Virus record (IMG/VR): IMGVR_UViG_3300027741_000215
Location: 1-27,920 of that record
Source of the DNA: a virus
Direction: 5' to 3' (one strand)
Length of the DNA: 27,920 bases
Made by a program: the position numbers and the translations under genes. The notes beneath the pieces were generated by a model. The model searched no databases and had not been told where the DNA came from. It was given only the letters and a program-made list of their open reading frames with translations. Positions within the stretch are counted from its first letter, which is position 1, and each line of letters opens with the position of its first letter. Shown one piece after another: positions 9,330 through 25,941 of this stretch.

Positions 9330-9358
9330 TTGCCACTTGCCTAAATTTATGATATAAT
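9330..9358 (+). promoter_or_regulatory. Sigma70-type promoter for the cobS-like gene
   Basis: TTGCCA (9330-9335), 17-bp spacer, perfect TATAAT (9353-9358), 29 bp before ATG 9388. It lies in an 83-bp noncoding gap after the Cys-cluster gene and is the third promoter with a TTGCCA -35. Confidence 0.8.
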
Positions 9359-9387
9359 TGATTCACCGAATAACTGGAGTTTTTATA

Positions 9388-10524
9388 ATGAGTTTAAACA
9401 GAAACCAAAAAGCCTTTGTCACAGCGGCAGAAGCAATCTTTGGTGAGAAAGCAATTCTTTCCCGTGACCAAATTCAACGTGTTGTTGAAGAAAATAACAT
9501 TTCATTTCCCTATTGGTTTGTAACCAAGTCCGACTATCGTGCTGAACGTGGTCAGTATCAACTACCTGACATTGGCACAAAACCTAAAGTACAAGAACCT
9601 GAGTTTGAAGTTGCTTTGGCTGCACAAGTGCTTGAGTTCAAACAACCTAAGTTGATTGATGATTCAGATGTTTCAATTCCCGCAAAGTACCCTGATTATG
9701 TTCCATTTGGATTCTATAAAGACCTTACTGACATTATCAGGACTAATATGTATTATCCTGTGTTTATTACTGGCCTTTCTGGAAACGGAAAGACGCTTAT
9801 GGTCGAGCAAGTTTGTGCAAAGCTTAACCGAGAATGCATTCGTGTTAACATTTCGATTGAGACTGATGAAAGTGACCTGTTGGGTGGTCCTACTCTTGTC
9901 GGTGGTAATGTTGTTAATAGAGATGGTCCTGTTATCACGGCTATGAAGCGTGGTGCCATTCTGTTGATTGACGAAGTTGACCGTGGATCCAATAAGTTAA
10001 TGTGTTTGCAAGGTATCTTAGAAGGCAAACCATACTACAACAAGAAAAACGGTGAGATGGTGTATCCAAAGAATGGATTCAATGTGATTGCTACTGCAAA
10101 CACCAAAGGCCGTGGTTCAGAAGAAGGTCGTTATCTGTCACAGATTCTTGATGATGCTTTCTTAGAACGATTCCCGATTACTGTTGAACAGGAATATCCT
10201 GATGCAAAAACAGAAAAGAAAATTCTGTCACCATTGATTGATGACAAAGAATTTGTAGACCATTTGGTCCAATGGGCTGACATTGTTCGCCAGTCCTTTG
10301 ACCAAGGCGCCGTAGATGAAATTATCTCTACTCGCCGACTTGTCCATATCGCCAAGGCATTCAAAATCTTTGGTGATAGGACGAAAGCCATTGAATTGTG
10401 TGTCAGCCGTTTTGATGCTGAAACCAAGACGGCTTTTTTAGACTTGTACTCTAAGGTAGATGCTAAGGTAGAACCTGAAACAGAAACCGTGACTACAAAA
10501 TTTGATGATGAAATCCCATTTTAA
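9388..10524 (+). CDS. cobS: CobS-like (MoxR-class) AAA+ ATPase, 378 aa
   Basis: The start at 9388 follows CTGGAG (9375-9380); an in-frame ATG at 9358 overlaps the promoter. The AAA+ core has Walker A GLSGNGKT (129-136), the block NISIETDESDLLGGPTLVGG, Walker B ILLIDEVD (191-198), and a sensor-1 region IATANTKGRGSEEGRY. This order matches the CobS subunit of aerobic cobaltochelatase and its phage homologues, found in many T4-like cyanophages. No CobT or CobN partner is visible, so the role in phage infection is uncertain: cobalt insertion with host subunits, or another MoxR-like chaperone activity. The N-terminal 100 residues are a separate helical domain. MoxR-class relatives also assist maturation of methanol dehydrogenase in methylotrophs, which may or may not be relevant here. 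Confidence 0.85.
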   Translation: MSLNRNQKAFVTAAEAIFGEKAILSRDQIQRVVEENNISFPYWFVTKSDYRAERGQYQLPDIGTKPKVQEPEFEVALAAQVLEFKQPKLIDDSDVSIPAKYPDYVPFGFYKDLTDIIRTNMYYPVFITGLSGNGKTLMVEQVCAKLNRECIRVNISIETDESDLLGGPTLVGGNVVNRDGPVITAMKRGAILLIDEVDRGSNKLMCLQGILEGKPYYNKKNGEMVYPKNGFNVIATANTKGRGSEEGRYLSQILDDAFLERFPITVEQEYPDAKTEKKILSPLIDDKEFVDHLVQWADIVRQSFDQGAVDEIISTRRLVHIAKAFKIFGDRTKAIELCVSRFDAETKTAFLDLYSKVDAKVEPETETVTTKFDDEIPF

Positions 10525-17735: not shown

Positions 17736-18308
17736 ATGTCTATTGAATTGTGGTGGCCAACACCAATATATCATTCCGAATTTGATGAAGATGAAAATTC
17801 ATTTGAACTGATGCATCAGGAAATTGAAAATACTATAAAAACAATTGAAACAAAACCATCACCTTTTCAATTTTGTGAATTTGAAACTACATTCACAAAT
17901 GAATATAGTTTTTGTGACAAAACACCTTTATTAAAAAAGTATATTGAAAAACACATTGAAGAATTTTCTCAAATTTATACAAAAATAAACAATTTATCTA
18001 TTTCAGAATCATGGGTAAATTTTAATGGAAAAGGGCATTTTCAAGAATTACATGACCACTCTGGATCAACAATTTCTGGTTGTTATTATTTTGATACAAA
18101 TGGCAACGATGGTGATATAGTTTTCAAGCCAACTATTGATATGTATAGGCATACAAATGTTGAATGTTCTTTATATCCAGAACATGTTAAATGGACTCCA
18201 GCAAATGGATTAATTCTTTTATTTCCATCATTCTTAAATCATTTTGTCACTGTAAACAAAACTGACCACAAAAGAATTTCAATTTCCTTTAATGTATTTA
18301 ATAGTTAA
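17736..18308 (+). CDS. 2OG-Fe(II) oxygenase-like protein, 190 aa
   Basis: Jelly-roll dioxygenase signature of the phage/bacterial TIGR02466-type family. It starts ELWWPTPIYHSEF, has ESWVNFNGKGHFQELHDHSG with iron-ligand candidates at His 106 and His/Asp 107-108, SGCYYFDTNG, and a distal FPSFLNHFVTVN (His 169) followed by RISISFN, with Arg 180 as the likely 2-oxoglutarate anchor. The reaction would be a hydroxylation using O2 and 2-oxoglutarate; the substrate is unknown. A second, diverged copy is at 25321-25941. The gene is markedly A-rich compared with its neighbours, which may indicate a different origin. Confidence 0.8.
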   Translation: MSIELWWPTPIYHSEFDEDENSFELMHQEIENTIKTIETKPSPFQFCEFETTFTNEYSFCDKTPLLKKYIEKHIEEFSQIYTKINNLSISESWVNFNGKGHFQELHDHSGSTISGCYYFDTNGNDGDIVFKPTIDMYRHTNVECSLYPEHVKWTPANGLILLFPSFLNHFVTVNKTDHKRISISFNVFNS

Positions 18309-21340: not shown

Positions 21341-21796
21341 ATGGCACAACAACGTTCTGTTGTAGATGTACAGCCAGCTGGAATGGTTTCAATGTTTGGT
21401 AACTCTACTGTACCAACAGGTTGGTTACAATGTAATGGTGCTGCTGTATCACGTACTACATATTCAGATTTGTTTGCAAATATCGGCACCACTTTTGGTG
21501 TAGGAGATGGTTCAACTACTTTTAATCTTCCAGAATTGCGTGGTGAATTTATTAGAGGTTGGGATAACTCTAGAGGTGTAGATTCTGGTCGTACATTTGG
21601 TTCTTTTCAATATGCTACTGGAATGGATGAACAGGCATTACAAGATGCTGCACTTAGATTAGATAATACAGATAGTACTGCATATAATGTACGAGGTGTG
21701 AGTGGTGTTCCTGGAGATAATAACACAGGAAGAACATACAGTATGTACAAAATACGACCACGTAATGTAGCGTTTATGGTTTGTATTAAATATTAA
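21341..21796 (+). CDS. Tail-collar domain protein, tandem copy 1, 151 aa
   Basis: Phage tail collar (PF07484-type) pattern: PAGMVSMFGNSTVPTGWLQC, NGAAVSRTTYSDLFA, GVGDGSTTFNLPELRGEF, RGWDNSRGVDSGRTFGS. The C-terminal third varies among the three copies and ends in the shared KIRPRNVAFMVCIKY type motif. It is a late virion protein of the baseplate/tail-fibre tip. Copies 2 and 3 follow directly. Confidence 0.85.
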   Translation: MAQQRSVVDVQPAGMVSMFGNSTVPTGWLQCNGAAVSRTTYSDLFANIGTTFGVGDGSTTFNLPELRGEFIRGWDNSRGVDSGRTFGSFQYATGMDEQALQDAALRLDNTDSTAYNVRGVSGVPGDNNTGRTYSMYKIRPRNVAFMVCIKY

Positions 21797-21806
21797 GGTA
21801 TAAAAG

Positions 21807-22265
21807 ATGGCACAACAACGCACATTCGTAGATGTACAACCAGCTGGAATGATTTCGCTATTTGGCAATTCTACTGCACCAACAGGTTGGTTGCAGTGTA
21901 ATGGTGCTGCTGTATCCAGAACAACTTATTCGGATTTATTTGCAGCTATTGGTACAGTATATGGTGTTGGTGATGGAAGTACAACATTCAATGTTCCCGA
22001 ATTACGTGGAGAATTTGTCAGAGCGTGGGACAATTCTAGAGGTGTAGATCCTGCTCGTACAATAGGTTCACGACAAGATGCTACCGGTGTTGATGATAAA
22101 ATTTATCAAGGTGTTACATTGGGTCATGACAATATAGATGGTCCTTCCACATACAATACACAAAGTGTTGCTTCAAATCCAGGTAATGCGGATACAACAC
22201 AAACACATTATCGTTATAAAGTACGACCACGTAACGTAGCATCATTATATTGCATCAAATATTAA
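21807..22265 (+). CDS. Tail-collar domain protein, tandem copy 2, 152 aa
   Basis: Same order of collar blocks (PAGMISLFGNSTAPTGWLQC; GDGSTTFNVPELRGEFVRAW; VRPRNVASLYCIKY). The collar core is nearly identical to copy 3, whereas residues about 95-135 are different. The intergenic 31-nt segment with the start codon is identical before copies 2 and 3, which fits recent duplication. Confidence 0.85.
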   Translation: MAQQRTFVDVQPAGMISLFGNSTAPTGWLQCNGAAVSRTTYSDLFAAIGTVYGVGDGSTTFNVPELRGEFVRAWDNSRGVDPARTIGSRQDATGVDDKIYQGVTLGHDNIDGPSTYNTQSVASNPGNADTTQTHYRYKVRPRNVASLYCIKY

Positions 22266-22275
22266 GGTATAAAAG

Positions 22276-22731
22276 ATGGCACAACAAAGAACACTTGTAG
22301 ATTTACAACCAGCTGGAATGATTTCCAGTTTTTGTGCATCATCAGCACCAACAGGTTGGTTACAATGTAATGGTGCTGCTGTATCTAGAACAACTTATTC
22401 GGATTTATTTGCAGCTATTGGTACAGTATATGGTACTGGTGATGGTTCAACCACTTTTAATGTTCCTGAAATGCGTGGAGAATTTTTGCGTGGATGGGAT
22501 AATTCTAGGGGTATAGATTCTGGTCGTACAATAGGTTCACGACAAAATGCTTACGGAACTGATAACCAAGCTCCACAACGAGTTGATGTGGGTTTTGATA
22601 ATAATGATGGACCTTACTACACACAATTTAGTGGATCATCATCAACTATTCAAACTGGCGCTAGTCGTACTGTAAGCCGATATAAAGTACGTCCTCGTAA
22701 TGTGGCATTATTAACGTGTATTAAGTATTAA
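22276..22731 (+). CDS. Tail-collar domain protein, tandem copy 3, 151 aa
   Basis: Third collar protein, again with PAGMISSFCASSAPTGWLQC, then the GDGSTTFNVPEMRGEFLRGW block and the ending VRPRNVALLTCIKY. Its variable segment (DNNDGPYYTQFSGSSSTIQ) differs from copies 1 and 2. The three genes could give a mixed or switchable set of fibre tips. Confidence 0.85.
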   Translation: MAQQRTLVDLQPAGMISSFCASSAPTGWLQCNGAAVSRTTYSDLFAAIGTVYGTGDGSTTFNVPEMRGEFLRGWDNSRGIDSGRTIGSRQNAYGTDNQAPQRVDVGFDNNDGPYYTQFSGSSSTIQTGASRTVSRYKVRPRNVALLTCIKY

Positions 22732-23029: not shown

Positions 23030-23054
23030 CAAACTATATAATTTAATGTATAAT
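23026..23054 (+). promoter_or_regulatory. Perfect consensus promoter of the tmRNA gene
   Basis: TTGACA (23026-23031), 17-bp spacer, TATAAT (23049-23054), both hexamers perfect. Transcription should begin near 23061, just before the acceptor half of the tmRNA. The -35 overlaps the last codons of the preceding gene. Confidence 0.9.
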
Positions 23055-23061
23055 GTGAAGT

Positions 23062-23395
23062 TATGGTTGTATGAAGCAACTTGAAATGTGTTCTGGACGG
23101 GGGTGCAAATCCCCCCACCTCCACCAAAAGAATTCTTCATCCTGTATAGAGACAGACAAGTGCTATAGACTATACTAAAGAGTTCTTTTGATGGGGGTGC
23201 ATAGTTTCGACAGGGCAAATAGTACAGAAGTGGACAACTCACCAGAGTAGGTGTAAAAACTAAAACAAACGTAAATGCAAACGATAGCTCTTATGAGTAC
23301 GCATTAGCAGCCTAAACACTGCTTAGGGTTTTTGGTAGTTTATCCTCGTAACAGAATTAAACTACTACAGTATTAACACTGGTGTAGATTCATGA
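23062..23395 (+). ncRNA. ssrA: Circularly permuted (two-piece) tmRNA
   Basis: The tRNA-like 3' half comes first. A T-arm with a GGGGG/CCCCC stem (23099-23103, 23111-23115) and loop TGCAAAT is followed by acceptor strand CACCTCC (23116-23122), discriminator A and encoded CCA (23124-23126). The 5' half starts downstream at 23193: GGGGGTG (23193-23199) pairs fully with CACCTCC, including the G3-U70 wobble used by alanyl-tRNA synthetase, then GTTTCGACAGG matches the conserved tmRNA 5' region. The tag reading frame is likely GCA at 23277 to TAA at 23313-23315, giving ANDSSYEYALAA; an earlier resume codon is possible. The processed-out spacer 23127-23192 closes a 13-bp helix (23125-23137 with 23178-23190). 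A later 8-bp stem is at 23335-23342/23358-23365. The 3' end of the coding piece and the exact 5' end of the acceptor piece are estimates. No CCA end is found downstream, so a standard order is excluded. Role: rescue of stalled ribosomes. Confidence 0.9.
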
Positions 23396-23405
23396 TTATC
23401 TCTGC

Positions 23406-23435
23406 TTGACATTCTCATATCTGTCCATATATAAT
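23406..23435 (+). promoter_or_regulatory. Consensus promoter of the pqqA-like gene
   Basis: TTGACA (23406-23411), 18-bp spacer, TATAAT (23430-23435), both perfect. It follows the tmRNA directly and lies 41 bp before the ATG at 23477. The 24-codon gene therefore has its own strong host-type promoter. Confidence 0.85.
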
Positions 23436-23476
23436 CCAGTTGCAACAATTCGTTGTGACATTATAGGAGAACTAAT

Positions 23477-23551
23477 ATGAAATGGTCTACACCACAAGCA
23501 AGCGATATGAGATATGGGTTTGAAATCACTATGTACATCGCTAACCGTTAA
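23477..23551 (+). CDS. pqqA: PqqA-like PQQ precursor peptide, 24 aa
   Basis: AGGAGA (23465-23470) precedes ATG 23477. The 24-residue product has the PqqA layout: start MKWSTP, then a DMRYGFEITMYIANR end. The conserved pair Glu 16 and Tyr 20 (E-x3-Y) is present; these residues are cross-linked by the radical SAM enzyme PqqE with PqqD to make pyrroloquinoline quinone. Length (22-24 aa typical) and the terminal NR also fit. It has a private promoter (23406) and a terminator (23559). No pqqB-F genes are in the window, so host enzymes would have to process it. It is an unusual auxiliary metabolic gene that points to a methylotrophic or other PQQ-dependent host. A decoy peptide is the main alternative, but both reactive residues are kept. 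Confidence 0.9.
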   Translation: MKWSTPQASDMRYGFEITMYIANR

Positions 23552-23558
23552 AGAGTTT

Positions 23559-23596
23559 TGGTGGGTTTACTCTAAAAAGAAACCCATCATTTTATT
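23559..23596 (+). terminator. Intrinsic terminator after pqqA
   Basis: TGGTGGGTTT (23559-23568) pairs with AAACCCATCA (23580-23589) in a 10-bp stem with one G-U pair and an 11-nt loop. TTTTATT follows at 23590-23596. It would end the pqqA transcript before the outer-membrane protein gene. Confidence 0.8.
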
Positions 23597-23614
23597 AACA
23601 ACAAGGAGTTTTAA

Positions 23615-24193
23615 TTGAAAAAAGTAGTTCTAGCAACAATCCTAGCCTCTGTATTCGGTATCGCATCAGCAGCAGGTCCTTATGCCGCCATCACTTATGA
23701 TGTAAAAGACAAACAAAATGCTTCACAAACAAACTATGTTTATGGTTTGAACGTTGGTCAGAAGTTTGACAATGGTTTTACTGTTGAAGCACGTATGGAA
23801 GATGAACGTGTTGAAAGCACTTCACAAAAACAAGAAGGTCTTGCACAAATTAAAGTTAGTTATGATATCGCAACAGGCACTATGTTCACACCATATGTTG
23901 CAGGTGCAGTTGGTCATAAAAACAAATCAACAATTGACTTCAACATTTGGGTAGCAGAAGCCGGTGTTAAAGCTAAGATGGGTGATTTCGGTGTACGTTA
24001 TGGTTATCGCCGCCGTTCTGATTGGGCAGAAAGCGACACCAACGCATATAACACTGATGAACAAACAATCGCTCTTGGTTACAACATCACCAAGAATGAT
24101 AACATCAGCGTTGCATACAAATTGGAACGCCGTAATGATTCAGTATCATCTGAGTACAATACAAAAGGAATCTACTACACACGTAGTTTCTAA
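23615..24193 (+). CDS. Secreted outer-membrane beta-barrel protein, 192 aa
   Basis: The start codon is TTG at 23615, with AAGGAG (23603-23608) upstream; it gives a typical signal peptide (MKKVVLATILASVFGIASAA, cleavage near Ala 20). The mature part is made of alternating hydrophobic/polar strands separated by turns (for example YVYGLNVGQKF, GFTVEARMED, TPYVAGAVGHK, FGVRYGYRRR, ISVAYKLERR) and ends in YYTRSF. The terminal Phe is the usual outer-membrane barrel insertion signal. The size suggests an 8-stranded OmpA/OmpX-like barrel. Phage-encoded barrels could change receptor access (superinfection exclusion) or permeability; this is inference. It follows pqqA and its terminator; a leader promoter of its own is not obvious. 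Confidence 0.75.
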   Translation: MKKVVLATILASVFGIASAAGPYAAITYDVKDKQNASQTNYVYGLNVGQKFDNGFTVEARMEDERVESTSQKQEGLAQIKVSYDIATGTMFTPYVAGAVGHKNKSTIDFNIWVAEAGVKAKMGDFGVRYGYRRRSDWAESDTNAYNTDEQTIALGYNITKNDNISVAYKLERRNDSVSSEYNTKGIYYTRSF

Positions 24194-25320: not shown

Positions 25321-25941
25321 ATGTATGACAATAACATATTTCATTTGTTTGCTAAACCAGTATATCACAGAAATATTGGTAGAGACCTAACAAAAGAAGA
25401 AAATGATTTTATTCTGAAAAACTGTGAAAGAGAAAATACATTTTTCAATTTGGGTAATTACACAAGCAATGATACCTATATTCTGGAGAATCCTGTTCTT
25501 GCAAATCTGAAAGAAGATATACAATCAGTAATTGACGAATATGTTGAAAATATCATTAATCCAGTTGATGGATTCAGTTTGTATATTACACAATCTTGGA
25601 TGAATGTTGCTGACAAGGATAAATTTCACAATGTACATACACATTCAAATAGTGTATTATCTGGTGTTTTTTATTTTGATGTGGATAATATTTCAAATTT
25701 TACAATCTTTCATAATGAAGAATATGAAATTTATGGTATAGAAAATAAATCAACAAATTATTACAATTCAAAAGAATATTGTATTGAAGTTGATAAAGGT
25801 GATATAATTGTTTTTTCATCAAACATGAGACATTCTGTTCCGCCAAATAAATCAGATAAACCTAGAATTAGTTTATCTTTCAATACCTTTATCAAGGGTA
25901 CAATTGGCGTTAAGCGTATATTAAATGAACTGGTGTTATGA
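25321..25941 (+). CDS. Second 2OG-Fe(II) oxygenase-like protein, 206 aa
   Basis: Same family as the 17736 gene: a start with IFHLFAKPVYHRNI, then ITQSWMNVADKDKFHNVHTH, with iron-ligand candidates His 103-108, SGVFYFD, a distal FSSNMRHSVPPN (His 171) and PRISLSFNTF (Arg 182 for 2-oxoglutarate). Substrate unknown. It separates the gp33-like and gp59-like genes, which are adjacent in T4, so it may be an insertion. It is noticeably A/T-richer than the genes on each side. ATGA overlap with the next gene. Confidence 0.8.
   Translation: MYDNNIFHLFAKPVYHRNIGRDLTKEENDFILKNCERENTFFNLGNYTSNDTYILENPVLANLKEDIQSVIDEYVENIINPVDGFSLYITQSWMNVADKDKFHNVHTHSNSVLSGVFYFDVDNISNFTIFHNEEYEIYGIENKSTNYYNSKEYCIEVDKGDIIVFSSNMRHSVPPNKSDKPRISLSFNTFIKGTIGVKRILNELVL

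Follow-up and report, generated by a model that had tools for sequence, protein, structure and literature searches.

A pqqA gene beside the tmRNA of a T4-like phage

The DNA analysed here (the window) is an entire IMG/VR record of 27,920 bases. Since it encodes T4 gp59, gp32 and PhoH, the initial annotation was right to regard it as a T4-like phage genome. Between the tmRNA and a gene for a 192-residue barrel-like protein, again as initially annotated, lies a short gene, pqqA, whose translation is MKWSTPQASDMRYGFEITMYIANR followed by a stop codon. The locus comprises the following features:

23034..23406, + strand: two-piece (permuted) tmRNA gene, 5' of pqqA (ARAGORN; the predicted 3' end lies against the pqqA promoter and may extend too far)
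23406..23435, + strand: sigma-70 promoter TTGACA-18-TATAAT, 5' of pqqA (12/12 matches)
23464..23469, + strand: Shine-Dalgarno motif AGGAGA before the pqqA start (from sequence)
23477..23551, + strand: pqqA, 24 codons plus stop (PF08042 and TIGR02107 above curated cut-offs; kept in relatives)
23559..23589, + strand: hairpin 3' of pqqA, GGTGGGTTT...AAACCCATC then ATTTTATT (MFE -13.5 kcal/mol, z -2.5)
23615..24193, + strand: gene for a barrel-like outer-membrane protein, 192 aa (PF13505, E=8.6e-5, under the cut-off of that profile)

Identification of the 24-codon gene as pqqA was borne out by hmmscan with two profiles, both matched over their full models: PF08042 (E=1e-7, 32.2 bits versus a cut-off of 21.1, profile positions 1-19 of 19) and the TIGR02107 equivalog (E=3.6e-8, 33.1 bits versus a cut-off of 20, model positions 1-21 of 21). 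The presence of a phage-borne pqqA at this site is therefore confirmed. Like other members of the family, the peptide has 24 residues, the invariant Pro, Arg and Gly, and the Glu16-x3-Tyr20 pair; Glu and Tyr are the residues that PqqE cross-links in known PqqA. Unlike bacterial family members, it is phage-encoded, lies outside a pqq operon and has its own promoter and hairpin. No PHROGs family matched the peptide, and no sequence relative was found in the PDB.

Elsewhere in the window, three similar tandem proteins of about 151 residues with diverging C-termini are encoded at 21341-22731, the first tested of which is a phage tail Collar-domain protein. There are also two 2OG-Fe(II) oxygenase genes (17736-18308 and 25321-25941) and an AAA ATPase gene (9358-10524) with a C-terminal CbbQ/NirQ/NorQ match, placed by PHROGs in the category porphyrin biosynthesis.

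Conservation of the flanking signals in related phages, which the initial annotation had proposed to look for, holds for the hairpin, but not for the perfect promoter beyond the lineage of the window. A hairpin of -10 kcal/mol or lower follows 71% of phage pqqA genes (versus 18% at random sites), and the one in the window, absent from the results of a simple terminator scan, looks like a terminator or an mRNA stabiliser. A 12/12 promoter was present in only 3% of pqqA phages (versus 0.3% at random sites), ruling it out as a universal trait; it is a trait of the window phage's lineage, with the window-type promoter also conserved in L190 (the contig of L081), L191, L194 and L047.

Relatives at the insertion site were retrieved through the barrel gene. 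Three of them (L190, L191, L194) contain the pqqA cassette, so that close relatives do keep the gene. In four others (L192, L193, L195, L198) the tmRNA tail is followed directly, without pqqA, by the barrel leader (ATTAACAACAAGGAG or a closely similar sequence), and L196 has neither tmRNA nor pqqA at the corresponding site. The split between occupied and empty sites implies a discrete gain or loss of the cassette. A functional tie between pqqA and the neighbouring barrel is unlikely, because the barrel persists in relatives without pqqA. The tmRNA is one landmark of the insertion site, outside PQQ function, and the barrel gene is the other. In L019, L080, L072 and L042 the pqqA hairpin is similar to the 3' tail of the tmRNA of the respective phage (z 3.5-8.9), as if pqqA had inserted along with a duplicated tmRNA tail; the similarity is weak (z 2.2) for L081, which is identical to the window (window region 23034-23600).

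This polymorphism at the site raises the question whether pqqA is a mere passenger, host scrap acquired beside the tmRNA, of no benefit and lost again in relatives. The surroundings of tRNA and tmRNA genes do collect cargo: 26 pqqA loci were found within 500 bases of such a gene, versus 13 expected. The presence of dedicated expression signals speaks against a passenger, as do recurrence and selection (see below).

Occurrence and conservation of pqqA among phages

A scan of IMG/VR with a degenerate PqqA pattern found at least 120 stretches, as did a scan with a second pattern, and at least 200 pqqA loci are present in this collection. The same pattern with its codon order reversed had no match in IMG/VR, so that the matches are not due to chance; together with the profile scores, this control also rules out a chance open reading frame in the window.

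When the peptide was compared by tblastn with 50,697 phage records, 12 records matched. Ten of these are the spring-water podovirus ctXG6705 and nine cultivated methylophage records (four of Melnitz, and one each of P19250A, Venkman, MEP301, MEP401 and MEP402), which are not equivalent to all methylophages, as other named Methylophilales phages exist. None of the ten has the gene annotated as pqqA. The other two, from Acinetobacter phage MD-2021a, were excluded, as they contain a full pqqABCDE set and are probably chromosomal; one of them (L004, CAKLQF020000010.1) carries ppk as well as pqqABCDE and is probably a piece of bacterial chromosome filed as phage. In Melnitz (MZ577097.1, L002), a hypothetical antisense ORF is annotated over pqqA at 2467-2562, the real gene being on the opposite strand, 11 bases from a tRNA-Leu gene.

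Host contamination of IMG/VR was ruled out as a general answer by the isolate phages and by gp23 or terminase in many records, including pqqA-bearing ones of up to 364 kb and 356 kb. The gene recurs in phages that are unrelated to one another and infect PQQ users, namely the myovirus Melnitz, P19250A/Venkman, MEP301 and MEP401/402. Like the window, these Methylophilales phages have a lone pqqA with a ribosome site; unlike the window, they encode a Methylophilaceae-type peptide, belong to other phage lineages and use other insertion sites.

An initial pN/pS estimate was biased, because the retrieval pattern fixed C-terminal residues. The selection test was therefore redone with a pattern restricted to the N-terminal half, leaving the C-terminal codons free. 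All 201 viral loci matching this pattern keep the frame, the length and the Glu and Tyr residues, as does the window, and none shows the broken frames or lost residues that would have spoken against a genuine PqqA. Most of the 201 loci had originally been retrieved by C-terminal patterns, but in the clean subset found by the N-terminal scan only, the result was the same (29/29). For the 83 unique sequences present in 89 loci from the N-terminal-pattern scan, pN/pS was 0.125 over the last ten codons, which are free of the pattern (bootstrap 0.104-0.142), and 0.037 through Tyr; as the sequences are related, these values are statements about the population.

The pqqA of the window is hence a metabolic gene of host origin inside a genuine phage genome, of a kind that is under purifying selection in viruses. 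Such selection already strains the idea of a passenger, and the recurrence in many unrelated phages, with sequence types that match the hosts, makes it improbable.

Phage PqqA as such was already known. The Lake Baikal phage population VP_266 has been described as encoding both PqqA and methanol dehydrogenase (PMC7678222), and a list of viral genes from reservoir sediments also includes pqqA (PMC13188868). VP_266 and VP_139 are also T4-like, and their PqqA was proposed to serve PQQ and methanol oxidation; besides PqqA they carry a methanol dehydrogenase gene and others, whereas PqqA is alone in the window and in the 50 records checked, and that of the window is of Burkholderiaceae type. A 2024 study makes a different claim, co-expression of a PqqA-annotated peptide family with defence systems (PMC11118758). 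The OM43 phage papers make no mention of pqqA. The literature searched seems not to mention the breadth of occurrence, the solitary state, the insertion cassette or the host matching.

Peptide type and the probable host

Chromosomal PqqAs of Burkholderiaceae type (a label inferred from order- and family-level draws and general knowledge) read EITMYIANR almost throughout. Those of Methylophilaceae, present in 1-12 copies per sampled genome, were all EVTMYVCNR or EVTMYVMNK, in a set that may under-represent forms with GC-rich codons, because it was retrieved by an AT-biased pattern. The window peptide agrees with the former at 18 of 20 compared positions and with the latter at 13 of 20. The initial annotation had linked the phage to methanol dehydrogenase and Methylophilaceae, which this comparison does not support: the PqqA is of Burkholderiaceae type, not Methylophilaceae type, and so the methanol link is unproven for the window phage. 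In the window we found neither a Methylophilaceae-type PqqA nor other evidence for a Methylophilaceae host, with the caveat that this concerns one short peptide. Judging from these 24 residues, this T4-like virus of freshwater-type bacteria probably has a Burkholderiaceae-type host. Such a host would have use for PQQ, because several PQQ-dependent dehydrogenases are encoded in several of the Burkholderiaceae-type genomes sampled.

Methylophilaceae are among the hosts infected by other phages with pqqA, and the methylotroph reading does hold for phages with a Methylophilaceae-type pqqA, cultivated methylophages included. Cultivated phages of OM43/LD28 have Methylophilaceae forms, mostly VMNK or VLNK (IMTR in Melnitz), and this MNK/LNK form is also that of orphan Methylophilaceae copies. 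Methylophilaceae have 3-12 pqqA copies versus one pqqBCDEFG set (PMC4109929), with which the 1-12 copies counted here agree. Their orphan copies are, like the window gene, alone and apart from the single pqqBCDEFG set, and share the MNK form with OM43/LD28 phages; unlike the window gene, they are chromosomal and of a different sequence class.

Orphan copies also occur in Burkholderiaceae-type genomes. In L229 and L230 an orphan chromosomal pqqA adjoins a sensor histidine kinase gene; that of L229 also has a gene for a TonB-dependent receptor nearby. These may perhaps be regulated extra copies. The peptide of the L120 phage is identical to the orphan copy of L230.

Absence of partner genes and the proposed role of a lone precursor

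As the initial annotation had noted, no other pqq gene is near. By tblastn, PqqB, C, D and E and methanol dehydrogenase were absent from the window and from 289 phage loci (2.39 Mb, some overlapping), whereas the same search found pqqB in 23 of 54 host loci. Likewise, 50 whole pqqA-bearing virus records contained neither PqqB nor a PQQ-dependent alcohol dehydrogenase, nor any PqqE above the cut-off; the weak PqqE matches below it are probably other radical-SAM proteins. As many records are fragments, the absence is strong in aggregate alone. These searches rule out a complete phage PQQ pathway, and there was no co-carried methanol dehydrogenase among the 50 records. In the window, pqqA is not followed by pqqB-E; a pqqABCDE context is not defining for PqqA, because orphan chromosomal copies exist.

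One PqqA is destroyed for every PQQ made, whereas the PQQ enzymes are reused. Upon shut-off or degradation of host genes, the precursor alone would therefore run out, and being exhausted first, it makes a lone pqqA the expected minimal form of PQQ support. We thus infer, with a probability of roughly 0.7, that the phage gene is a functional auxiliary gene that supplies the consumable precursor to host PqqB-F and sustains PQQ-dependent oxidation. The earlier suggestion that the phage provides only the precursor, with host PqqB-F assumed, is upheld as the best inference.

After infection, the gene's own promoter, which is of host type, would drive synthesis of a short pqqA mRNA with its end at the hairpin. 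Host PqqD would bind the 24-residue peptide, host PqqE would cross-link its Glu16 and Tyr20, and host PqqB, PqqC and PqqF/G would process the product into PQQ, which would keep PQQ-dependent alcohol oxidation (in methylotrophs, of methanol) running for energy during infection. A Gluconobacter cell-free extract supplied with PqqA peptide is reported to have turned it into PQQ (Wang 2021, cited in PMC9851590). The multiplication of pqqA alone in Methylophilaceae (PMC4109929) may serve as a host precedent for an effect of dosage.

The auxiliary-gene reading is supported by the profile matches, the dedicated expression signals, the empty sites, the solitary state, selection, recurrence and host-matched peptides. 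Against it stand the lack, in the phage, of a dehydrogenase needing new cofactor, and the several relatives without pqqA. Moreover, PQQ enzymes work in the periplasm and the cell already has a pool of the cofactor when it is infected, so that extra PQQ might matter little within one lytic cycle.

The solitary state would also suit a decoy, since a flood of substrate could titrate PqqD/PqqE; the phage peptide would then saturate these proteins, lower PQQ and stop host alcohol oxidation or PQQ release. A decoy would gain nothing if it retained the C-terminal part and the two reactive residues, yet Glu and Tyr are invariant at all 201 loci and pN/pS through Tyr is 0.037. Hosts themselves multiply solitary pqqA (PMC4109929), and overall we consider a decoy highly improbable.

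Alternatively, PQQ might be raised for a non-respiratory end: it could act as an antioxidant, or it could leak out and block superinfecting phages by occupying PqqU, the TonB receptor that they use. We know of no PqqU-dependent phage of these hosts, which counts against superinfection exclusion, and energy use is the simpler purpose. An E. coli phage that depends on PqqU is indeed kept from infecting by PQQ (PMC12124388), but we regard such an end as very improbable. Decoy, passenger and superinfection exclusion are all less likely than precursor supply.

We lean, somewhat less firmly, towards a broader view of precursor supply, in which phages from many lineages with PQQ-dependent hosts (Burkholderiaceae, Methylophilaceae and perhaps Methylophagaceae) have convergently acquired lone pqqA as a general module that has been overlooked, targeting the step that is limiting because its substrate is consumed, and leaving all enzymes to the host. 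Such small genes are missed by gene callers, as the nine matching cultivated methylophage records (0/9 annotated) illustrate. Infection of OM43 strain H5P1 by Melnitz or Venkman would be a testable case among cultivated phages and hosts. If precursor supply is true, phages would sustain a host cofactor by supplying a precursor of 24 residues that is sacrificed in the process, and no metabolic intervention could be cheaper; viral infection would then be linked to the oxidation of methanol and alcohols in lake and coastal sea water.
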